DNA from: Desulfurellaceae bacterium bin18
Lineage (GTDB): Bacteria; Desulfobacterota; Binatia; Bin18
Reading direction: 5' to 3'
Assembly (NCBI GenBank): GCA_002238415.1
Contig: MPMI01000002.1
Span: forward strand, 62,001-126,000
DNA length: 64,000 nucleotides
Shown here: in pieces, positions 7,274 through 45,462 of the stretch
Layout: each line of letters begins with the position of its first letter
Numbering within the stretch: the first letter of the stretch is position 1
Program-made: the position numbers and the translations under genes
Notes under the pieces: model-generated
The model's database searches: none
Seen by the model: only the letters and a program-made list of their open reading frames with translations
What the model was told of the DNA's origin: nothing

Positions 7274-7349
7274 GCCGGCGTCCTGGCTGCACCCCACCTT
7301 AAAATTTTCGGGTCAATGCTCCTTCTGCCTAACGTGGGGTTTTCTGGTA
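7274..7349 (+). repeat. 76-bp direct repeat, left copy flanking the BrnTA module
   Basis: This copy matches 8077-8152 at 71 of 76 positions in the same orientation, including a 31-base identical core starting TTAAAATTTTCGGGTCAATG. The two copies bracket brnA-brnT and almost nothing else. No transposase lies between them. Confidence 0.85.
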
Positions 7350-8076: not shown

Positions 8077-8152
8077 GCCGGCGTTCTGGCTACACCCCAC
8101 CTTAAAATTTTCGGGTCAATGCTCCTTCTGCCCAACCTGAGGTTTTCTGGTA
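8077..8152 (+). repeat. 76-bp direct repeat, right copy flanking the BrnTA module
   Basis: This is the same-orientation partner of 7274-7349 with 5 mismatches in 76. Its left edge touches the predicted brnTA -10 box, so the repeat forms the upstream part of that promoter. Confidence 0.85.
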
Positions 8153-13767: not shown

Positions 13768-13800
13768 TCTTTACCGCGCACAGACGCCAAGGAATTGCTC

Positions 13801-14346
13801 GTGAAACAATGGTTCGCATTATCCGCCATTGGTCGGGATCGGCCTGGCATAGTCGCCGATTTGGCAGAATTGATTTTCGAGTGCGATTGCAACCTCGAAG
13901 ACTCCAGCATGACCCTTCTGGGGGGTGAGTTTGCCGTGCTCCTCCTCCTCTCGGGTCGGAGCCCGGACTGTCAGCAACGGCTCTCAGCGGCTTGCAAACG
14001 GCTCGAATGGGAAAAACGTCTGACCGTCTTTTTTCGTCCACTTGAAGAAGAACCCCTCCCCTATGGTGCCAACGACGAAACGCGCGGTTATGAACTTGTG
14101 GCAACCGGCGTGGACAAAGCTGGCATTGTCGCTCGTGTGGCCCGCTGCCTGGCCGAGCAGGGGGCAAATATTGTGCACATGCAGACCTCTACTCAGCCAG
14201 AGCCGGGCCACGGCACAGTCATCTATCATATGCGAATCTCTCTGGCTGTTCCGAGCGACGTTGCTGAGACGACCCTGAGAGACCAACTCGACCGTATTGC
14301 AGATGACTTACGTATTCATATAGACCTCACAGCATCCAAAGAGTAA
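13801..14346 (+). CDS. Tandem ACT-domain protein, GcvR-like
   Basis: A 181-residue protein with two ACT domains. The first opens QWFALSAIGRDRPGIVADLA and the second GYELVATGVDKAGIVARVAR with EQGANIVHMQTSTQP. The pattern matches glycine-cleavage repressor GcvR-like regulators that sense amino acids. The GTG at 13801 is preferred over a TTG two codons earlier because AAGGA lies 7 bases upstream. The last codons and stop (AAA GAG TAA) are part of palindromic repeat copy A. No DNA-binding domain is present, so it must act through a partner. Confidence 0.8.
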   Translation: MKQWFALSAIGRDRPGIVADLAELIFECDCNLEDSSMTLLGGEFAVLLLLSGRSPDCQQRLSAACKRLEWEKRLTVFFRPLEEEPLPYGANDETRGYELVATGVDKAGIVARVARCLAEQGANIVHMQTSTQPEPGHGTVIYHMRISLAVPSDVAETTLRDQLDRIADDLRIHIDLTASKE

Positions 14347-14390
14347 ACGTGTCCAGCATCTCATCTCTATTGGAGGACATGTTTACTCTT
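14339..14390 (+). repeat. Dispersed palindromic repeat, copy A
   Basis: The arms AAGAGTAAACGTGTCC (14339-14354) and GGACATGTTTACTCTT (14375-14390) pair with one mismatch around the loop AGCATCTCATCTCTATTGGA. Arms and loop are both shared with copies near 34.1, 40.3 and 40.9 kb. The left arm contains the stop codon of the ACT gene. It could form an RNA hairpin between the ACT and dehydrogenase genes. Confidence 0.85.
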
Positions 14391-14417
14391 CGTTTCGCAT
14401 AATTAAAGGAGGACCGC

Positions 14418-21811: not shown

Positions 21812-21835
21812 AAAAGAGTAAACGTGTCCTCTTTT
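21812..21835 (+). repeat. Dispersed palindromic repeat, shortened copy B
   Basis: The full left arm AAAGAGTAAACGTGTCC is followed directly by TCTTTT, so the sequence looks like an internally deleted member of the repeat family. It can still form a 7-bp hairpin (AAAAGAG/CTCTTTT). It lies just after the AOR stop, before the MoaD-like gene. Confidence 0.65.
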
Positions 21836-21838
21836 CAA

Positions 21839-34074: not shown

Positions 34075-34128
34075 AAAGAGGAAACGTGTCCTTCAACAGA
34101 TAGGCAGATGCTGACACGTTTCCTCTTT
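34075..34128 (-). repeat. Dispersed palindromic repeat, copy C
   Basis: The perfect 16-bp arms are AAAGAGGAAACGTGTC (34075-34090) and GACACGTTTCCTCTTT (34113-34128). Read on the minus strand the loop AGCATCTGCCTATCTGTTGA matches the loop of copy E, so this copy is in reverse orientation. Compensatory changes in both arms (GGAAAC/GTTTCC instead of GTAAAC/GTTTAC) preserve pairing. Confidence 0.85.
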
Positions 34129-34579: not shown

Positions 34580-35548
34580 CTATCGTGGCCAGACCTGAGG
34601 GTTCTTTGCTGCATCATGTCCGAGGGGAGTACCGTCGGAGAGTAGGCTGAGGTCTTGCGGTGGGGCGTGACGACGGAATCTATGGGTGACATCGTCGCCG
34701 CCGTAGCGCACCGTCACTCCACTGCGCGTACGCGTTGGGGAGAGGTTCCCCCCGGCCCCGTGCAGACTGGCTAGATGATGCACCACCACATCCCCCGGCT
34801 GGGGCGCGAAGGTGGCGATATCGAAATCGTCTTCGTGTCCGTCTATGCGTGGAACGTCGAGTCCGTCATCATCGTCCGCATGGGCATTGCTGATGAAAAA
34901 ATTGACCTTGTAAATCTGGCCCGACTTGTGAACACCCTTCAGATAGTGGACCAGGCCCATGTCCGCACTCTCGGCATACGCCGGAACGCGCACGCCGCAA
35001 ACCTGGCTGCCCTGGATGTTGTCATAGCCCAGGTCCTGGTGCCACGAGGTTTTCTCCAGGGTGAGGGGCGGTTTGACCAGGACTTGGTCGTCGTACAGAA
35101 AAACTTTCTGCGATTGCATCAGCGTGGCCGCGATTTCCGGCAGAGGGGAATGAATAGCCACATCGCGCAGGGCATCGCTAACCTGCCATGAGCCGGTGAT
35201 GGAGAGATAATGGCCCCGCTTGTCCGTTTCCGGCTGAATACGGTCTTCGAGCAGCACTGTACCGGCTAATTGCCGGGGCGAGCCCCATTCGTTCTGACCT
35301 TCCGCCCACTTGTCACGAGCCTGGAAACCGGAAACAGCTTCAGGCGTATTGGCGGCCAGACCAAGATTCGTAAAATCCACCGCCTGTCCCTGAGGGTTTT
35401 TGACCAATTCAATAATGCCACGGGCGAGGTAATCAGCCCACTCCGGATCGAGAATACCCGGCAACCAGACAACGCCATCCTCTTCGTAGGTCCGCATCTC
35501 TTTGTCCGTGATAGGGCGCCGCAGGTTGGTATTCATCAGTAGCCTCAT
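34580..35548 (-). CDS. Phytanoyl-CoA dioxygenase (PhyH) family Fe(II)/2-oxoglutarate oxygenase
   Basis: A 322-residue PhyH-type oxygenase. SWHQDLGYDNI supplies the HxD iron ligands, and the distal PGDVVVHHLASLHGAGGN with TRTRSGVTVRY supplies the second His and the 2-oxoglutarate-binding Arg. The family hydroxylates varied small molecules. The ATG at 35548 overlaps the upstream Mo-hydroxylase stop as ATGA. A second ATG 4 codons later has an AGG site, so the exact start is uncertain. It belongs to the operon coxM-coxS-coxL-coxL-phyH-cupin. Confidence 0.87.
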   Translation of the reverse strand: MRLLMNTNLRRPITDKEMRTYEEDGVVWLPGILDPEWADYLARGIIELVKNPQGQAVDFTNLGLAANTPEAVSGFQARDKWAEGQNEWGSPRQLAGTVLLEDRIQPETDKRGHYLSITGSWQVSDALRDVAIHSPLPEIAATLMQSQKVFLYDDQVLVKPPLTLEKTSWHQDLGYDNIQGSQVCGVRVPAYAESADMGLVHYLKGVHKSGQIYKVNFFISNAHADDDDGLDVPRIDGHEDDFDIATFAPQPGDVVVHHLASLHGAGGNLSPTRTRSGVTVRYGGDDVTHRFRRHAPPQDLSLLSDGTPLGHDAAKNPQVWPR

Positions 35549-37926
35549 TCGGCACTGGGATTCGTTTGAGCCCGGTCCAGCATGCTGAGTACGCGTTCTG
35601 GAGTCAGCGGAACCTCGTTGACCCGTACGCCAAAGGGTGACAGCGCGTCGGCCACGGCGTTGGCAATCGCCGCCGGCGGGGCAATCGCCCCACCTTCACC
35701 CATGCCCTTGATGCCGTGCAATGTATACGGCGACGGTGTTTCAATATGTCCGATTTCTACCTGGGGCACATCCGCGGCTGTGGGAATCAGATAGTCCATA
35801 AATGTCCCAGTCAGGAATTGGCCAGTGTCATCGTATACAGCCTGCTCGTACAGCGCGGAACCGATCCCCTGGGCTACCCCGCCCTGAATCTGACCATTCA
35901 CAATAATGGGATTGATAATTGTGCCACAGTCTTCAACCACGATATAGCGCAAGATTTGAACCTGACCGGTTTCAATATCGACTTCAACCGCGGCCACATG
36001 GGTCGCGTTGGAGTGCGTGATCGGCGGCGGTTCGTAGGCAACGGTCACGTCCAGCCCCGGCTCTTCGTCGGGAGGCAGGCTCGTCGGCTGGGCGATAATT
36101 CGATGCGCCAACTCAGGAATGGAAAGCAGGCGTACCCCACCGGTTTTGCGTTGGACGGCACCCTGGGCAAGTTCGAGGTCGTCTGCGGGCACCTCGGTCA
36201 GGCGCGTCGCAATGCGCAGCAATTTATCACGTAGCTTTCGCGCCGCCGAAGTCACGGCCCCCCCACCCGTTACCGCACTCCGACTGGCCCAGGTCCCCCA
36301 GCCACGCGGGGTAGCCTGTGTATCACCCTGGACAACCGCGACGTCTTCGAGCGCCACGCCCAGCGTGTCCGCGATCAGTTGGGCATAGATGGTATGGTGG
36401 CCCTGGCCGTGCGAGTGCGTCCCAACGAAGACTGTCACCTTGCCCGACTCATCAATGCGCAGCGTCGCTGACTCATAGCCACCGATCTTGACACCAAAGG
36501 AATCAAACACGGCCGAGTTGTGGGCTGTGCCTTCCACATACGAGCCGATCCCCGCCCCAAGATAACGGCCGTTCTTGCGGGCTTTCTGCTGTTCAATCCG
36601 AAAATCGCCGTAGCCGAGGATATCCAGCGCCTGTTGTAATGAGGCCTGATGGCTGCCGCTCTCGATCTCCGCACCCATCAGGGTCGTATACGGATGCTCG
36701 TCCTGCGGGATCATATTCCGCAGCCGGATCTCTGCCGGGTCAAGACCGAGCTTTTGGGCACCCATATCCAGAAGACGCTCCATAGCCAGAGCCGCAACCG
36801 GAATACCCACGCCCCGGTACACTCCAATGGAGGCTTTGTTGGTCGCGACCGTACAGGTTTCGAAGCTAAAGGCCGGAATCTTATAGGGGCCCGTTATAGT
36901 CCCAGCCGCATGTTTTGGCTCAAAAGCCGAACTCCATGGATAGGACGAATAGCCACCCGCGTCGCTCAGGAAACGCGCCTTGAGGCCCAGCACGCTACCG
37001 TCGCTCTTGAGAGCCAATTCCGCATTGACAATCTGATGCTTAGCCTGGAGAGAGGCCGACAAATGCTCACGCCGGTCTTCGATCCATTTGACCGGTTTGC
37101 GCAGAGCTCTGGCCAGATAGGTCACCACCACTTCTTCAGGAAAAGGGTGGGCTTTGAGGCCAAAGCCTCCACCCACATCAGGAGAAATGACCCGGATGCG
37201 GTGCTCCGCCAGGTCCAGCAGCGTCGCCAGACTGGCCCGCAGGGTATGGGGTACTTGGGTGGAGGACCAGACGGTCAGCGACTCTGTTGCGACATCAAAC
37301 TGGGCGACACAACCCCGTGTTTCCATGGGTGAGGCCATGTGGCGACCAGTCACAAACCGTTCGGACACCACACAGTCGGCCTCTTGAAACGCCTTGCCCA
37401 CCTCACCAATCTGGGCTTCGAGCCGTTCCATGACATTGTCGCCCCACTCTTCGTGGACCAGGGGGGCATCCGCGAGCAACGCACTTTCCATATCGGCCAC
37501 GGCCTCAAGTGGCTCATAGTCGACTTCGACAAGCTCGGCGGCGTCCTCGGCGGTATAGCGATCCGTCGCCACAACCGCCGCAACCATATCACCCACAAAA
37601 CGGACCTTGTCAGGCGTGAGGACGTGCCAGTTACATGATTTGTGAAAAGGGACTTTCTGCGTATCAAATTCGACTCGGAGCGGCTTGATCGTTTCCAGAA
37701 TGTCCTTGCCGGTCAGGACACATGCCACACCGGGCTTGGTCAGCGCAGCCTGAACATCGATATTCGCAATTTTGGCATGGGCGTAAGGACTGCGGACAAA
37801 GGCGACTGCCAGCATGTCGGGTAATACGAGGTCATCAACGTATTGGGTTTTCCCTAGTAAAACGCGCGGGTCTTCGACCCGGCGTACCTGCGCCCCCAGC
37901 ATTTTCCCGGTTCTCTCACGACTCAT
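35545..37926 (-). CDS. Xanthine dehydrogenase/CoxL-family molybdopterin subunit, second paralog
   Basis: A 793-residue Mo-hydroxylase large subunit opening KMLGAQVRRVEDPRVLLGKT. It has DVGGGFGLKAHPFPEE in the Moco region, GVYRGVGIP at the position where relatives have AYRGAGR or AYxCSFR, and GEGGAIAPPAAIANAVADAL with the catalytic Glu near the C-terminus. It is not a CO dehydrogenase because the AYxCSFR loop is absent. It lies 41 bases downstream of a close paralog (37968-40400) with which it shares most motifs. The pair may be alternative catalytic subunits for different substrates. Confidence 0.9.
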   Translation of the reverse strand: MSRERTGKMLGAQVRRVEDPRVLLGKTQYVDDLVLPDMLAVAFVRSPYAHAKIANIDVQAALTKPGVACVLTGKDILETIKPLRVEFDTQKVPFHKSCNWHVLTPDKVRFVGDMVAAVVATDRYTAEDAAELVEVDYEPLEAVADMESALLADAPLVHEEWGDNVMERLEAQIGEVGKAFQEADCVVSERFVTGRHMASPMETRGCVAQFDVATESLTVWSSTQVPHTLRASLATLLDLAEHRIRVISPDVGGGFGLKAHPFPEEVVVTYLARALRKPVKWIEDRREHLSASLQAKHQIVNAELALKSDGSVLGLKARFLSDAGGYSSYPWSSAFEPKHAAGTITGPYKIPAFSFETCTVATNKASIGVYRGVGIPVAALAMERLLDMGAQKLGLDPAEIRLRNMIPQDEHPYTTLMGAEIESGSHQASLQQALDILGYGDFRIEQQKARKNGRYLGAGIGSYVEGTAHNSAVFDSFGVKIGGYESATLRIDESGKVTVFVGTHSHGQGHHTIYAQLIADTLGVALEDVAVVQGDTQATPRGWGTWASRSAVTGGGAVTSAARKLRDKLLRIATRLTEVPADDLELAQGAVQRKTGGVRLLSIPELAHRIIAQPTSLPPDEEPGLDVTVAYEPPPITHSNATHVAAVEVDIETGQVQILRYIVVEDCGTIINPIIVNGQIQGGVAQGIGSALYEQAVYDDTGQFLTGTFMDYLIPTAADVPQVEIGHIETPSPYTLHGIKGMGEGGAIAPPAAIANAVADALSPFGVRVNEVPLTPERVLSMLDRAQTNPSAE

Positions 37927-37967: not shown

Positions 37968-40400
37968 TCAGGCGGCGGCTTTGCGCTGTTCAATCCAGTC
38001 CAACACCCGTTCCGGAGTGAGGGGGATGGCATTCACCCGCACCTCAAATGGAGCCAGCGCATCGGCAACCGCATTCGCTATCGCCGCCGGGGGAGCGATA
38101 GCCCCGCCCTCTCCCGCGCCTTTAATGCCGTGGGGCGTATGCGGAGATGGGCTTTCAATGTGACCGATTTCCACCTGCGGTACATCAACTGCGGTGGGGA
38201 TCAGATAGTCCATCAACGTCCCGGTCAGAAACTGGCCGTTCTCATCGTAGAGGGCGTGTTCGTACAGCGCCGAGCCTATCCCCTGCGCCACGCCGCCTTG
38301 AATCTGACCATCGACGACGGTGGGGTTGATAATCGTGCCGCAGTCTTCAACCACAATATAGCGCAGCAGAGTTACCTTGCCGGTGTCGCTGTCCACTTCG
38401 GCCAAGGCGATATGGGTCGCGTTGGCGTGGGTGGACGGTGGCGGTTCATAGTGAGCCGTGGCGTCCAGACCGGGCTCTTCATCCTGTGGCAGATCGCCGG
38501 CCTGCACCAGCACGCGATAGGCAAACTCCTTGATGGGCAGCAGCGGGGTGGCATCCGCTTTGCGCCGGATCATCCCCGCGGCCAGTTCCAGATCGTCGTC
38601 CGGCACCTCGGTCATACGCGAGGCGATACGCAACATCTTGCTACGCAGCTTTTCGGACGCCTTGGAGATCGCGCCTCCGCCGGTGACGGCACTTCGACTG
38701 CCCCAGGTGCCCATGCCGTAGGGAACAGCGTTGGTATCGCCCTCGATGATTCTGATATCGGCGAGCGGAACACCGAGTTCGTCGGCTGCAACCTGGGCCA
38801 GGGTTGTTTCGTGGCTCTGACCGTGGGAGTGGGTCCCGACCAGCACAGTGACCTTACCTGCGACATCCATCCGCACGGTTGCCGATTCATAGCCGCCTAG
38901 ATGCAGGCCCATCGAGGCAAAGGCCGCCGAACTCGGCGCCGTGCCTTCCAGGTAACAGCCGATACCGATACCCATATAGCGGCCCTGGGCTCGGGCCCGC
39001 TGCTGTTCGCCTCTGCACTCCTGGTAGCCCAGAATATCCAGCGCTTTCTGGAGGGATTCGCGATGGCTGCCGCTCTCGACTTCCGCACCGATAATGGTGG
39101 TATACGGATGTTCTTCTTTTCGGATCATATTCCGCAGCCGTATCTCGGCCGGGTCGAGGCCCAGTTTATGGGCGGCCAGGTCCATGAGCCGCTCCATAGC
39201 CAGCACTCCAATAGGCAGTCCCACCCCGCGGTACACCCCGATAGTGGTTTTGTTGGTGGCAACCGACACGGCCTCGAAGCTGAAGGCCGGGGTCTTATAC
39301 GGCCCGGGCATACTGGAAGCGGCGTGTCCGGCTTCGAACGCCGACCCCCATGGATATTCGGAATATGCGCCCACATCGCCGACAAACCGGCCTCTGATGC
39401 CAAGGATGGTACCGTCCCGTCGGACGGCAAGTTCGGCCTGGGCGACTTGTTGTTTGGCGTGGAGCGAGGCCGACAGATTTTCGCGACGGTCTTCAATCCA
39501 TTTGACCGGGCGGCCGAGACGGTGCGCGAGGTAGGCAGCCACGGCCTCCTCGGGAAAGAGATGTGCCTTTTGCCCGAACCCGCCGCCAACGTCCGGGGCC
39601 ACCACGCGGATATGATGTTCGGGGAAGTCCAGCACCAGGGCAATATGTGAGCGGAGGACATGCGGCACCTGCGTGGACGACCACACCGTCAGCGTGTCCG
39701 TGGCACGCTCAAAAGATGCCACACAGCCCCGCGTCTCCATGGGCAAGGCCATATGACGGCCGGTGGTGAGGCGTTCCGAAACAACGCAATCAGCAGTCTG
39801 GAACGCTGTGGTCACGTCACCAATCTCGGCCTGGAGCGTTTGCATGACGTTATCGCCCCACTCTTCATGCACCAGCGGGGCGTCTGCTGCGAGTGCCTGT
39901 TCGACATCGGACACGGGCTCAAGCGGCTCGTACTCCACATCGATCAAACCAGCAGCGTCTTCTGCCGCATAGCGATCGGTGGCCACTACGACCGCCACGG
40001 CCTCGCCTACAAAACGGACCTTGTCTTGGGCCAGGACGGGCCAGTCGCAGGGTTTATGCGTGGGGGCCTTGGCTGGATCGTATTCGACCCGGAGCGGCTT
40101 GATGGCCTCGGCAATGTCGGCTCCGGTTAAAACAAGCTGAACGCCAGAGTGATTCTGGGCCGTACCCGCGTCAATAGACACAATCCGTGCGTGCGCATAC
40201 GGGCTGCGGACAAAGGCGAGCGCGACCGAATTGGGCAGGTCGAGATCGTCCACGTACTGAGATTTGCCCAACAAGACGCGCGGGTCTTCGACCCGGCGTA
40301 CCTGCGCGCCGACCATCTTGCCGGAAAGAGTCAACGTGTCCAGCATCTCATCGCTAGTGGAGGACATGTTTACTCTTTTTCCGCCTTGGGAGGCTGTCAT
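37968..40400 (-). CDS. Xanthine dehydrogenase/CoxL-family molybdopterin subunit, first paralog
   Basis: An 810-residue Mo-hydroxylase large subunit with GKMVGAQVRRVEDPRVLLGK, DVGGGFGQKAHLFPEEAV, GVYRGVGLP in the substrate loop and GEGGAIAPPAAIANAVADAL with the active-site Glu. GGGFGQK retains the Gln that contacts the Mo oxo group in many family members, while the second paralog has Leu there. The N-terminal 28 residues are encoded by palindromic repeat copy D, giving an extension absent from the paralog. The ATG at 40400 has AGGA 9 bases upstream; an ATG inside the repeat at 40367 is an alternative. Confidence 0.9.
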   Translation of the reverse strand: MTASQGGKRVNMSSTSDEMLDTLTLSGKMVGAQVRRVEDPRVLLGKSQYVDDLDLPNSVALAFVRSPYAHARIVSIDAGTAQNHSGVQLVLTGADIAEAIKPLRVEYDPAKAPTHKPCDWPVLAQDKVRFVGEAVAVVVATDRYAAEDAAGLIDVEYEPLEPVSDVEQALAADAPLVHEEWGDNVMQTLQAEIGDVTTAFQTADCVVSERLTTGRHMALPMETRGCVASFERATDTLTVWSSTQVPHVLRSHIALVLDFPEHHIRVVAPDVGGGFGQKAHLFPEEAVAAYLAHRLGRPVKWIEDRRENLSASLHAKQQVAQAELAVRRDGTILGIRGRFVGDVGAYSEYPWGSAFEAGHAASSMPGPYKTPAFSFEAVSVATNKTTIGVYRGVGLPIGVLAMERLMDLAAHKLGLDPAEIRLRNMIRKEEHPYTTIIGAEVESGSHRESLQKALDILGYQECRGEQQRARAQGRYMGIGIGCYLEGTAPSSAAFASMGLHLGGYESATVRMDVAGKVTVLVGTHSHGQSHETTLAQVAADELGVPLADIRIIEGDTNAVPYGMGTWGSRSAVTGGGAISKASEKLRSKMLRIASRMTEVPDDDLELAAGMIRRKADATPLLPIKEFAYRVLVQAGDLPQDEEPGLDATAHYEPPPSTHANATHIALAEVDSDTGKVTLLRYIVVEDCGTIINPTVVDGQIQGGVAQGIGSALYEHALYDENGQFLTGTLMDYLIPTAVDVPQVEIGHIESPSPHTPHGIKGAGEGGAIAPPAAIANAVADALAPFEVRVNAIPLTPERVLDWIEQRKAAA
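40325..40378 (+). repeat. Dispersed palindromic repeat, copy D, inside a coding region
   Basis: The arms AAAGAGTCAACGTGTCC (40325-40341) and GGACATGTTTACTCTTT (40362-40378) flank the loop AGCATCTCATCGCTAGTGGA. This differs from the copy A loop at only two positions. The repeat lies within the start region of the first Mo-hydroxylase large subunit and encodes KRVNMSSTSDEMLDTLTL of its N-terminus. Confidence 0.88.
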
Positions 40401-40411
40401 ATTCCTGTGTC

Positions 40412-40903
40412 CTAGGATTGGGACTGTTCCGCGACAGCCTGAACGGCTTTAACAATGTTCGCGTAGCCGGTACAGCGGCATAAATTGCCGGACAGTCCGT
40501 GCCGAATTTCTTCTTCGCTCGGCTGCGGGTTCTTGTTAAGGAGGTCCACCGCGCTCATGAGAAACCCGGATGTACAGAAACCACACTGGAGCGCATGGTT
40601 GTCCCAAAAGGCCTGTTGCAGCGGATGCATCTCATCCCCGTCGGCCAGCCCCTCAAGCGTCCGGAGTTCCGCCCCATCGGCTTGAACGGCAAACAAGAGG
40701 CATGACCGTACGCTTTCGCCATCCATGATGATGGTACAAGCACCGCACACGCCGTGTTCGCAGCCGAGGTGGGTTGCGGTCAGACCCAGGTCGTGACGGA
40801 TGAAGTCGGCCAAGAGTCGACGCACCGGAACTTCCCGTTCATATTCCTGGCCATTGACACGGACACGGATGGTCTGACTTTCGGCGAATTGCGTTTCTGC
40901 CAT
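40412..40903 (-). CDS. Mo-hydroxylase [2Fe-2S] small subunit (CoxS/XdhC-type)
   Basis: A 163-residue iron-sulfur subunit. The plant-type ferredoxin domain has CEHGVCGACTIIMDGESVRSC. The helical domain has QCGFCTSGFLMSAVDLL and GNLCRCTGYANIVKAV, giving the usual two [2Fe-2S] clusters. It carries electrons from the Mo site to the FAD subunit. AAAGGAT precedes the ATG. It sits between the FAD subunit and the two large subunits, the standard medium-small-large order. Confidence 0.95.
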   Translation of the reverse strand: MAETQFAESQTIRVRVNGQEYEREVPVRRLLADFIRHDLGLTATHLGCEHGVCGACTIIMDGESVRSCLLFAVQADGAELRTLEGLADGDEMHPLQQAFWDNHALQCGFCTSGFLMSAVDLLNKNPQPSEEEIRHGLSGNLCRCTGYANIVKAVQAVAEQSQS

Positions 40904-40922
40904 ATCCTTTCCCCTTGTTTAC

Positions 40923-40977
40923 AAAGAGTAAACGTGTCCAGCATCTGCATGTCTATTGAAGGACACGTTCACTCTTT
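40923..40977 (+). repeat. Dispersed palindromic repeat, copy E, overlapping a gene end
   Basis: The arms AAAGAGTAAACGTGTCC (40923-40939) and GGACACGTTCACTCTTT (40961-40977) enclose the loop AGCATCTGCATGTCTATTGA. The right arm encodes the last residues KSERVLQ and the stop of the FAD subunit gene. It fills most of the gap before the small-subunit gene. Confidence 0.88.
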
Positions 40978-41840
40978 GCCGCCTTGTCCCAGGCTTCTTT
41001 CAATGCGCGTTGGGTCAGTACTTTGACCATTCTGCGTCGATAGTCGGCAGAACCGTGGACGTCTCCTGACGGATCGACCGCGGCGGCGGCTTTTTCCGCA
41101 GCGGCAGTCATCACCGCGGCATCGCCCTGACTACCGATGAGGATCGGTTCTACTTCAGCGACATACAGTGGCGTGGAATGTGCTCCCCCAATCGCCAAAG
41201 ACACCGCCGAGCACGTTCCACCGGCGTCCAGCGTCAACTGACACGCAATGGCCACGATGGCGAAATCACCCGGCCGGCGGCACAACTCCTGGAAGCCCCA
41301 GACCGCACCCGCAGGAGCGACCGGGAAACGGACCTCACATAGAATTTCGTGCGGTTCAATCGCGGTCATGAGTGGAGCGAGAAAAAATTCACGCGCCGCA
41401 ATCGTCCGGGAGTTGTCCTGAGAGCGCAGCACGAACTGAGCATCCAAGGCCGCAGCAACTAAGGGCCATTCCGCGGCAGGATCGGCATGGACCAGGCTGC
41501 CCCCAATAGTTCCTCGGTTTCGTATCGCCAGGTGACCAACCTCAGCCGCGGCCCGACACAGTAACGGCTGGGCGGCCCGAACCTCATCGGACACTTCGAT
41601 CTGTCTATGCCGCGTCATTGCGCCAATACACAGGGTGTCGTTGTCCCGCTTGATATAGGCGAGATCATCCAGGCGATTCAGGTCTACGATAGACTCAACC
41701 GAGGCCATGCGCAGGTTGAGCAGCGGCACAAAACTCTGCCCACCGGCCAGTACTTTGGCCTCATCACCACCCACCTGAAGCAAGGCCAAGGCTTCGTCAA
41801 CAGAGCCGGGACACGCATATTTGAATGGTGCTGGTTTCAT
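40953..41840 (-). CDS. Mo-hydroxylase FAD-binding medium subunit (CoxM-type)
   Basis: A 295-residue FAD_binding_5/CO_deh_flav_C protein. KVLAGGQSFVPLLNLRMA near 35-52 and the GTIGGSLVHADPAAEWPL loop near 111-128 bind FAD. The C-terminal domain has GDVHGSADYRRRMVKVLTQR. It passes electrons from the Fe-S subunit to an acceptor. It is the first gene of the leftward operon and is divergent from the DUF917 gene across a 153-base gap that must hold both promoters. Its C-terminal tail comes from repeat copy E. Confidence 0.93.
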   Translation of the reverse strand: MKPAPFKYACPGSVDEALALLQVGGDEAKVLAGGQSFVPLLNLRMASVESIVDLNRLDDLAYIKRDNDTLCIGAMTRHRQIEVSDEVRAAQPLLCRAAAEVGHLAIRNRGTIGGSLVHADPAAEWPLVAAALDAQFVLRSQDNSRTIAAREFFLAPLMTAIEPHEILCEVRFPVAPAGAVWGFQELCRRPGDFAIVAIACQLTLDAGGTCSAVSLAIGGAHSTPLYVAEVEPILIGSQGDAAVMTAAAEKAAAAVDPSGDVHGSADYRRRMVKVLTQRALKEAWDKAAKSERVLQ

Positions 41841-43058: not shown

Positions 43059-44649
43059 GCATACAGACCAGGCCGATCAGACGCACCGCCGAGACCACTC
43101 GTTTCGGCTCGGCATCGATGTGGGCGGCACCCATACCGATGCTGTTATTCTTGACGCCACCGACCGGGTCATTGCCAGCACCAAGACGCCGACCACTGAG
43201 GATATCACCACCGGGATTGTCCAAGCCCTGCACGCCGTCTTGACCGCCTCTCAACTCCCGCCGGTCGCGATCGCCTACGCCATGCTCGGCACCACGCATT
43301 GCACTAATGCCGTGGTCACTCGCCGGGAATTGAATACGGTCGGGGTTATTCGCCTTGGGGCACCAGCGACCCGCGCGATTGAGCCTCTCCTGACCTGGCC
43401 GCAGGATCTCAAGCGCGTCGTCGGTGTCCGGCATGCGATTCTTCACGGCGGACATGAATATAACGGTGAGCCCTTGTCCGAGCTAGATGAACAGGAAGTG
43501 CGGCAGACTGCCCGCGCGTTCAAAGGACACGTCCACGCTCTTGCCGTCAGCGGGGTGTTTTCTTCGGTCAATGCCACCCATGAGTTGCGCGTCCGTGAGA
43601 TCGTAGAGGAGGAATTGGGCGCGGATATTCCCGTCAGCCTGTCAAGTGAAATCGGCAGCATCAGCCTGCTGGAACGCGAAAATGCCACTGTCCTGAATGC
43701 GGCCTTAATGCGCGTGGCGCAGCGGGCGATGCAAGGCTTTGAACAAGCCGTTCGCCAGCTCAACATCCCGGCGACCCTTTTCTTGGGACAAAATGACGGC
43801 AGCCTAATGTCTCTGGACTATGCCGTGCAGTATCCCATCTTCACGATTGCCTCAGGCCCGGCTAATAGCATCCGTGGGGCTGCCGCGTTAAGCCAGTTGC
43901 GAGACGCCATTGTCGTTGACATTGGCGGGACCACGACTGATATCGGCGTGCTGCACAAAGGCTTTCCGCGAGAATCTCAATTAGCCGTCGAGATTGGCGG
44001 TGTGGCCACCAATTTTCGTATGCCGGACCTGATTTCGATCGGTTTGGGCGGCGGGAGTCGGGTTCACCCGGAAGAGGCAGTGTGCGTTGGACCGGACAGC
44101 GTTGGCTATCGACTCCAAACGGAAGCCAGGGTGTTTGGCGGCTCTCAGCTTACCGCGACCGACTTGGCCGTAGCAGCCGGACGTATACGGCTCGGCAATC
44201 CCGGTCGAGTCCAGGCTTTACCCAAGACAACACTCAACAAGGGGCTGGACTATATTCAACACACACTTGAAGAGTATATTGATCGCGTAAAACTTTCGGC
44301 CGACCCGGTTCCGGTTGTTGCTGTCGGTGGTGGCAACATTTTGTTTCCCGATGCGCTCCGAGGCGTGTCTGAGATTATCCGGCCAGAACAAGCTGGAGTT
44401 GCCAATGCGATTGGCGTGGCGATTGCACAGGTCAGCGGGACGGTGGACAGCGTGTTTTCGCTGGAAAATCTGAGTCGGACTGAAGCCCTGGACCAGGCGA
44501 CAGCCTTGGCCTCTGAGCGCACCGTCGCCGCTGGTGCCGCACCGGATAGAGTTGAGGTACTCGATCTCGAAGAAGTCCCCCTAGCCTATTTGCCGGGCAA
44601 TGCGGTGCGGATCAAAGTCAAAGCGGTGGGCAGTCTGAAGACGGTATGA
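43039..44649 (+). CDS. Hydantoinase/oxoprolinase family protein (HyuA-like, short form)
   Basis: A 536-residue ASKHA-fold protein. FRLGIDVGGTHTDAVILD near 21-38 and GTTHCTNAVVTR are the N-terminal ATP-binding elements. VVDIGGTTTDIGVL forms the second phosphate loop and LGGGSRVHPEE follows. The family opens hydantoin or 5-oxoproline rings with ATP. It is shorter than the 683-residue HyuA at 47096. Its last 47 bases are duplicated exactly at 45405-45451. It is co-translated with DUF917. Confidence 0.9.
   Translation: MSPSSVEHTDQADQTHRRDHSFRLGIDVGGTHTDAVILDATDRVIASTKTPTTEDITTGIVQALHAVLTASQLPPVAIAYAMLGTTHCTNAVVTRRELNTVGVIRLGAPATRAIEPLLTWPQDLKRVVGVRHAILHGGHEYNGEPLSELDEQEVRQTARAFKGHVHALAVSGVFSSVNATHELRVREIVEEELGADIPVSLSSEIGSISLLERENATVLNAALMRVAQRAMQGFEQAVRQLNIPATLFLGQNDGSLMSLDYAVQYPIFTIASGPANSIRGAAALSQLRDAIVVDIGGTTTDIGVLHKGFPRESQLAVEIGGVATNFRMPDLISIGLGGGSRVHPEEAVCVGPDSVGYRLQTEARVFGGSQLTATDLAVAAGRIRLGNPGRVQALPKTTLNKGLDYIQHTLEEYIDRVKLSADPVPVVAVGGGNILFPDALRGVSEIIRPEQAGVANAIGVAIAQVSGTVDSVFSLENLSRTEALDQATALASERTVAAGAAPDRVEVLDLEEVPLAYLPGNAVRIKVKAVGSLKTV
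44592..44638 (+). repeat. 47-bp exact direct repeat, copy within the hydantoinase 3' end
   Basis: The sequence beginning GCCGGGCAATGCGGTGCGGA is identical over 47 bases to 45405-45451. Here it encodes PGNAVRIKVKAVGSL near the hydantoinase C-terminus. Confidence 0.95.
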
Positions 44650-45327: not shown

Positions 45328-45462
45328 ATGCCGGACGTGATCCGATATCCAGCGGGCGACTACACAGTATCTTCATCTGCTCTAGGAAAACTAGCCGATA
45401 GAAGGCCGGGCAATGCGGTGCGGATCAAAGTCAAAGCGGTGGGCAGTCTGAGACCGGTGTAG
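45328..45462 (+). CDS. Chimeric 44-residue small ORF ending in duplicated hydantoinase sequence
   Basis: The ORF starts MPDVIRYPAGDYTVSSSALG after a strong AGGAGG site and ends RRPGNAVRIKVKAVGSLRPV. The second half is the duplicated C-terminus of the hydantoinase at 43039-44649 in the same frame, and the first half is unrelated. It could be a gene-end scar that happens to be translatable rather than a functional peptide. It is too short for any fold assignment. Confidence 0.4.
   Translation: MPDVIRYPAGDYTVSSSALGKLADRRPGNAVRIKVKAVGSLRPV
45405..45451 (+). repeat. 47-bp exact direct repeat, second copy
   Basis: Identical to 44592-44638. Weaker similarity extends about 15 bases upstream (CTAGCC motif), suggesting a larger duplicated hydantoinase tail that has decayed. 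Confidence 0.95.

Follow-up and report, generated by a model that had tools for sequence, protein, structure and literature searches.

A dispersed palindromic repeat has very probably been inserted, without duplication of its target, after base 22 of the gene for a molybdenum hydroxylase large subunit, leaving the start codon in place and adding 54 nt in frame. The gene occupies positions 37968..40400 on the minus strand of the window, i.e., the whole stretch of 64,000 nt that was analysed, which is part of contig C68 of a Binatota genome (G000; 5.24 Mb, 83 contigs, 96% complete). It encodes 810 residues, with Ald_Xan_dh_C, MoCoBD_1 and MoCoBD_2 domains, and belongs to a molybdenum hydroxylase operon that comprises an FAD-binding medium subunit (40953..41840), a 2Fe-2S small subunit (40412..40903), this large subunit and a second, tandem paralogous large subunit (35545..37926), all on the minus strand. 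The repeat itself (40325..40378) is an imperfect palindrome with arms of 17 nt and a loop of 20 nt. Its location within the reading frame, proposed in the initial annotation, is borne out: read on the minus strand, it gives KRVNMSSTSDEMLDTLTL, residues 8–25 of the large subunit. Its extent has been corrected, since only 40325-40378 is palindromic; the segment 40379..40400, which had been counted as part of the repeat, is the original gene start and lies outside it. This segment, on the same strand, consists of the ancestral ATG, codons 2–7 (giving MTASQGG) and one further base, and is kept in filled and empty alleles. An Rfam search of positions 40200-41050 returned no match.

The tandem paralog lacks the extension, as had been pointed out, its N-terminus starting with MSRERTGKMLGAQ and containing no comparable stretch. 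The paralog alone could not show an insertion, because its N-terminus differs anyway; the orthologs do show it. An exact empty site is found in four of the five orthologs from the same genus (G001, G002, G004 and G005), which upholds the earlier suggestion that the palindrome entered the start region and became coding. The alignment with orthologs lacking the repeat, recommended at that stage as a check, was run, and these genes have the same start codon and the same first seven codon positions, followed by TGKMVGAQ. Past the end of the 2Fe-2S gene, the empty large-subunit genes start with MASSQGGTGKM or MEASQGGTGKM, the window allele with MTASQGG, then 18 codons, then SGKM. The nucleotide junction of the empty allele reads ...GGTGGAA directly followed by CCGG(C/A)AA..., and exactly 54 nt are held between these two halves both in the window and in the fifth ortholog (G003), the target not being duplicated. 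In G003 the repeat occupies precisely this position but its centre is inverted, so that the unchanged frame yields another peptide of 18 residues, KRVNVSSISPRVEDTFTL. No close ortholog of the large subunit is present in G006, where the best match has 69% identity. The empty site of G002 was read by eye, its status in the automatic table being unclear because of an extra small insertion before the ATG. A short insertion unlike the palindrome, with CCCTTCGACACGCTCAGGAC, is seen in this genome (L024) between the stop codon and the large-subunit start codon.

All six genomes carry the ATG at 40400, eleven bases past the upstream stop codon (further in G002). The residues SQGG are invariant across the orthologs, with codons that vary synonymously, at third positions. 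To the right of the site, third positions account for 19/24, 22/29, 24/30, 24/30 and 22/27 of the differences between the window and the five orthologs. The predominance of third-position differences and the kept start place the insertion within translated sequence. Homologs outside the ortholog group also start short (MATSLAGTGKM, MADGGTGKM and MATPLVGIGKM; in outline, a short MA..GTGKMVGAE). Judging from these alignments, the insertion appears to have become coding, with the ancestral ATG at 40400 still present. It had also been considered that the insertion moved the start, so that translation would begin at an ATG inside the element (40365..40367, minus strand) and the old start would be dead. 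This internal ATG is in frame, with a purine-rich AAGAG five bases upstream, but it is replaced by GTG in G003, and the old ATG and the codons that follow it up to codon 7 are retained in filled and empty alleles alike, being conserved in five orthologs with synonymous drift. The old ATG is moreover the natural start of the empty alleles, and the N-terminus is equally short in distant homologs. Such a relocation is thus unlikely; the ATG at 40367 may provide a second start but is not needed. Translation would begin at the old ATG, and the 18 residues would form an extra piece of the N-terminal tail. The best solved relative of the protein is the large subunit of quinoline 2-oxidoreductase (1t3q_B), whose match begins at residue 23, so that the repeat falls almost wholly beyond the solved homologous region. 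In a structure model of the large subunit (mean pLDDT 76.7), residues 1–48 score below 50; the insert is thus predicted to lie outside the confidently folded core, and the model says no more than this.

The presence of the repeat in the window species and in G003 only does not follow the tree. Along the aligned contig, the grouping G000+G001 and G003+G005 is supported by 4132 sites, versus 571 and 653 for the alternatives; G000 and G003 are thus not sisters, and an insertion common to these two alone conflicts with the tree. The history of the 40325-40378 site needs recurrent insertion, loss or lineage sorting to be added. Three further sites also conflict with the tree. At one of them, filled in G004 and G006, the 22-nt loop is private (0/195 outside elements match it as closely) and the flanks show no unusual similarity; the simplest reading of these sequences would be a common origin of the insertion, with subsequent exact loss or lineage sorting. 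Recurrent insertion is possible elsewhere, because the target flanks are not random. No sign of a short introgressed tract was seen between G003 and the window species, the flanks being no closer than expected, with tracts under about 180 nt below the resolution of this comparison.

The repeats of the window and of G003 could accordingly have been inserted independently, into one target but in opposite directions. The two species not being sisters, the opposite directions and the non-random targets all speak for this. So does the loop comparison: the loops share 18 of 20 bases when the inversion is taken into account, a similarity equalled by 8 of 195 outside elements. A second site filled in G000 and G003, in a Monooxygenase_B gene, behaves alike, its loops being uninformative. 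Against it, hitting the same nucleotide twice is unlikely given such a weak target, and the private 22-nt loop shared by G004 and G006 suggests that insertions are sometimes inherited in common and then affected by loss or lineage sorting. Two independent insertions are therefore quite conceivable, at somewhat less than an even chance, and an in-place inversion at the 40325-40378 site itself is plausible from the similarity of the loops.

Inversion of the centre is better documented at other sites. Where an element is filled in at least two genomes and its direction can be read, the centre is opposite between species at 10 of 42 sites (7 of 37 before further stretches were added). At these sites, 69 of 92 genome pairs agree in direction and 23 disagree, the pairs being mutually dependent. 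At two sites the loops are identical over 20/20 bases after inversion, whereas none of 194 outside elements is as similar; a third site behaves in the same way, with one difference. Loops that are both identical and private indicate that the centre has turned in place at those two sites. Assembly errors at inverted repeats could in principle mimic such differences, all the named relatives being metagenome-assembled. However, the whole element, at 54 nt, is shorter than a sequencing read, several species may agree on each direction within one site, and G001 and G006, both single-contig chromosomes, have opposite directions at one proven inversion site, which leaves an artefact extremely improbable. 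The hairpin would itself give rise to in-place inversion, the simplest routes being template switching or an exchange of strands between its two arms. A further proposal sees in the element a coding cassette that is frame-neutral, transposes and inverts itself, the host gene alternating between KRVNMSSTSDEMLDTLTL (window) and KRVNVSSISPRVEDTFTL (G003) as the centre turns in place. This is put forward tentatively, as rather less likely than not. If true, the element would be an intragenic inverting unit of very small size, 18 codons with a 20-nt centre, that spreads through the genome.

The element is one member of a large family. In the window, its arm pattern is matched 10 times versus 0.34 expected, and in the same genome the half-element pattern, with up to three mismatches, has 88+87 matches versus 4+4 for the reversed pattern; the excess over expectation and over the reversed control shows that the repeat is not due to chance. 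An 81-bp query found at least 41 places in this genome (the best 40 of 101 candidates were scored). With up to two mismatches, the half-element is matched 41–108 times in each of the seven genomes of the genus (0–1 for the reversed control) and 0–5 times in each of the other 51 genomes searched. A match in L058, from another genus of the same family, looks like a degenerate copy. An exact 22-base pattern, searched among 84,980 species, was matched in 94 stretches, which come without exception from six Candidatus Binatia/Binatota assemblies. Each of the seven genomes of this Candidatus Binatia genus is rich in the element family, which elsewhere stays close to background; copies number a hundred or so in these Binatota genomes. 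The same-genus relatives are metagenome assemblies of Candidatus Binatia/Binatota.

From the fetched DNA, 197 distinct elements were collected with loose thresholds, 191 of which fall within strict thresholds; the reversed-sequence control gave four matches in 2.10 Mb (loose) and none in 1.02 Mb (strict). Among the 191 elements, 123 are 54 nt long and 48 are 55 nt long. They have 17-nt inverted arms around a centre of 20–21 nt, and their ends read AAAGAG...CTCTTT. The arm pairs are of Watson–Crick type in 133–190 of the 191 elements, depending on position, and pair 7/48 is T-A in 156 elements and G-C in 23.

Other copies in the window, none of them assigned a strand, illustrate how the element meets gene ends. 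A second copy in the operon (40923..40977, 55 nt) gives the C-terminus and the stop of the FAD-binding subunit: its final KSERVLQ and TAG stop derive from this adjoining copy. The subunit ends in ...WAQKSAA in G001 and ...WTQKSAT in G004, whereas its last seven residues come from the element in the window. In G003, the gap corresponding to 40923-40977 is filled by a different, G/C-rich palindrome. A further copy (14338..14391), common to G001 and with an empty site in G005, contains the TAA stop of the ORF at 13795-14346. A diverged copy lies at 34075..34128 and a truncated one, reduced to one arm and six bases (TCTTTT), at 21813..21837. At the site of the latter, a complete copy between similar flanks is present in G003 (L202:484), and G005 is empty; remnants of imprecise deletion thus coexist with exact empty sites. 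The window also contains a 76-nt direct repeat unrelated to the palindrome (7274-7349 and 8077-8152, 93% identical, 803 nt apart), and a 54-nt direct repeat (44592-44645 and 45405-45458, 94% identical, 813 nt apart) whose first copy lies at the 3' end of a hydantoinase-like ORF, as if the gene end had been duplicated.

Clean insertion is observed across the family. Among 87 comparisons scored empty, the net gain is 54 nt in 31 and 55 nt in 21 (52/87 in total); in the remaining 35 it ranges from 48 to 69 nt, through nearby indels or partial remnants. The element inserts without target-site duplication. Over 124 sites, a target preference is seen on both sides, at positions +3 to +6 and +8, with chi-square values of 28–59 versus at most 7.2 at 50 control positions. 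The half-site preferences are equal on the two sides, but at positions 2–5 complementarity is lower in single sites than after shuffling, which rules out a palindromic target for single sites. A purine-rich target strand is suggested by an EM model.

The coding habit of the family was assessed on empty alleles, by requiring an ORF of at least 100 aa across the site with at least eight differences, of which at least 60% at third positions. This replaced a first count, partly circular, of 44 of 173 elements within ORFs of at least 250 aa. Eight elements in seven genes passed, and all eight are 54 nt long and open-framed; for a random element, direction and phase, the probability of this outcome is 0.373 per site and 0.001 for seven. 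The 40325-40378 site is outside these eight, having been missed by the test, probably because the upstream frame runs into the 2Fe-2S gene. Hosts confirmed by Pfam include MoxR, two CoA transferases III, prephenate dehydrogenase and Monooxygenase_B, among others. In the Monooxygenase_B (PmoB/AmoB-like) gene, the element lies just before a hydrophobic N-terminal segment (L004:1501-1554 in G000, L205:603 in G003); it is found in opposite directions in these two genomes and is absent in G001 and G005. The G-C variant of pair 7/48 abolishes the TAA of one reading frame; it occurs at 5/7 sites of the coding test versus 13/121 others (Fisher p 0.0006), and at 5/7 versus 5/30 when compared with the others having an empty ortholog (p 0.009). 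Elements of 55–56 nt also occur in ORFs supported by Pfam (VWA, TonB plug, TusA and signal peptidase); either the frame is shifted there or the ORF start or end is misjudged, and they go against a simple rule. Copies would be tolerated in genes because 54 nt make 18 codons and the frame (AA AGA GTA AAC GTG TCC ...) is open in both directions.

Insertion would be enzymatic, because it is exact and shows a weak target preference. No longer transposon with the element at its ends was found in the 1.31 Mb examined; the scan yielded just 11 arms without a partner, several of which were chance matches, truncated copies or ends of contigs. The element might belong to the REP-type palindromes, with a RAYT (Y1 transposase) to mobilise it, in keeping with its short hairpin, its many copies, its unduplicated target and the Y1_Tnp matches in G001, G002 and G003. 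No Y1 transposase was found, however, in G000, G004, G005 and G006, i.e., four of the seven genomes, though the element is abundant there, and no element lies beside any of the four Y1_Tnp loci. Mobilisation of this type is very unlikely, the distribution speaking against the Y1 transposase as the driver.

REP/BIME elements with their RAYT resemble the Binatota element by the short hairpin, the copy number and the lack of target duplication, but the latter is often intragenic, not extragenic, has the ends AAAGAG...CTCTTT and lacks a detected Y1 transposase in those four genomes. MITEs such as ERIC, Correia and RUP share with it terminal inverted repeats, a non-autonomous nature and occasional fusion to ORFs; unlike them, it has no target duplication and no TA ends, and no parental transposon was seen in the 1.31 Mb examined. 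An invertible coding segment is named an intragenic inverton, and the Binatota element is likewise found in both directions at the same site, across species.

According to the available text of one study, template switching at hairpins in rRNA genes predicts inverted loops and repaired arms, the inversions covering typically 4 and at most 7–8 nt (PMC8794818). As far as this account goes, the two phenomena have in common a loop that is the reverse complement between inverted arms, the arms staying paired, whereas loops of ~20 nt, in a mobile repeat partly located in coding sequence, distinguish the Binatota element from it.

Protein-coding palindromes have been described in Rickettsia (RPE, in frame in conserved genes) and in Wolbachia, in the available portions of the reports (PMC2229807, PMC10969869, PMC3767692), with a length of 105–146 bp, or in rounder terms about 105–150 bp, given for RPE (PMC10969869, PMC2229807). 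The Binatota element is likewise a dispersed palindrome with a long stem, in frame in unrelated conserved genes to which it adds a peptide, and it too has intergenic copies. It differs from RPE proper by its length of 54–55 nt rather than about 105–150, and by its occurrence outside the Rickettsiales, in another phylum, all 94 exact stretches being from Candidatus Binatia/Binatota. Unlike the Rickettsia and Wolbachia palindromes, its centre inverts in place between species. It is thus of an RPE-like kind, set apart from the RPE family proper by taxon and length. A literature search on Binatota and palindromic repeats found no report, and searches on coding palindromes, loop inversion and intragenic inversion led to the RPE papers and the template-switching study; within these searches, what is new is the other phylum, the short frame-neutral unit and the in-place inversion.

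Rickettsia and Wolbachia are obligate intracellular bacteria. The same habit is now seen in a Binatota lineage with 5-Mb genomes, where filled and exact empty alleles are found in seven related genomes. How repeats enter genes without destroying them thereby becomes directly testable, since one can score target, length, frame and direction alike. A search for the enzyme behind the mobility of these repeats could also start from the clean pairs of filled and empty alleles. In-place inversion inside genes, if true, would be a simple source of peptide variation.
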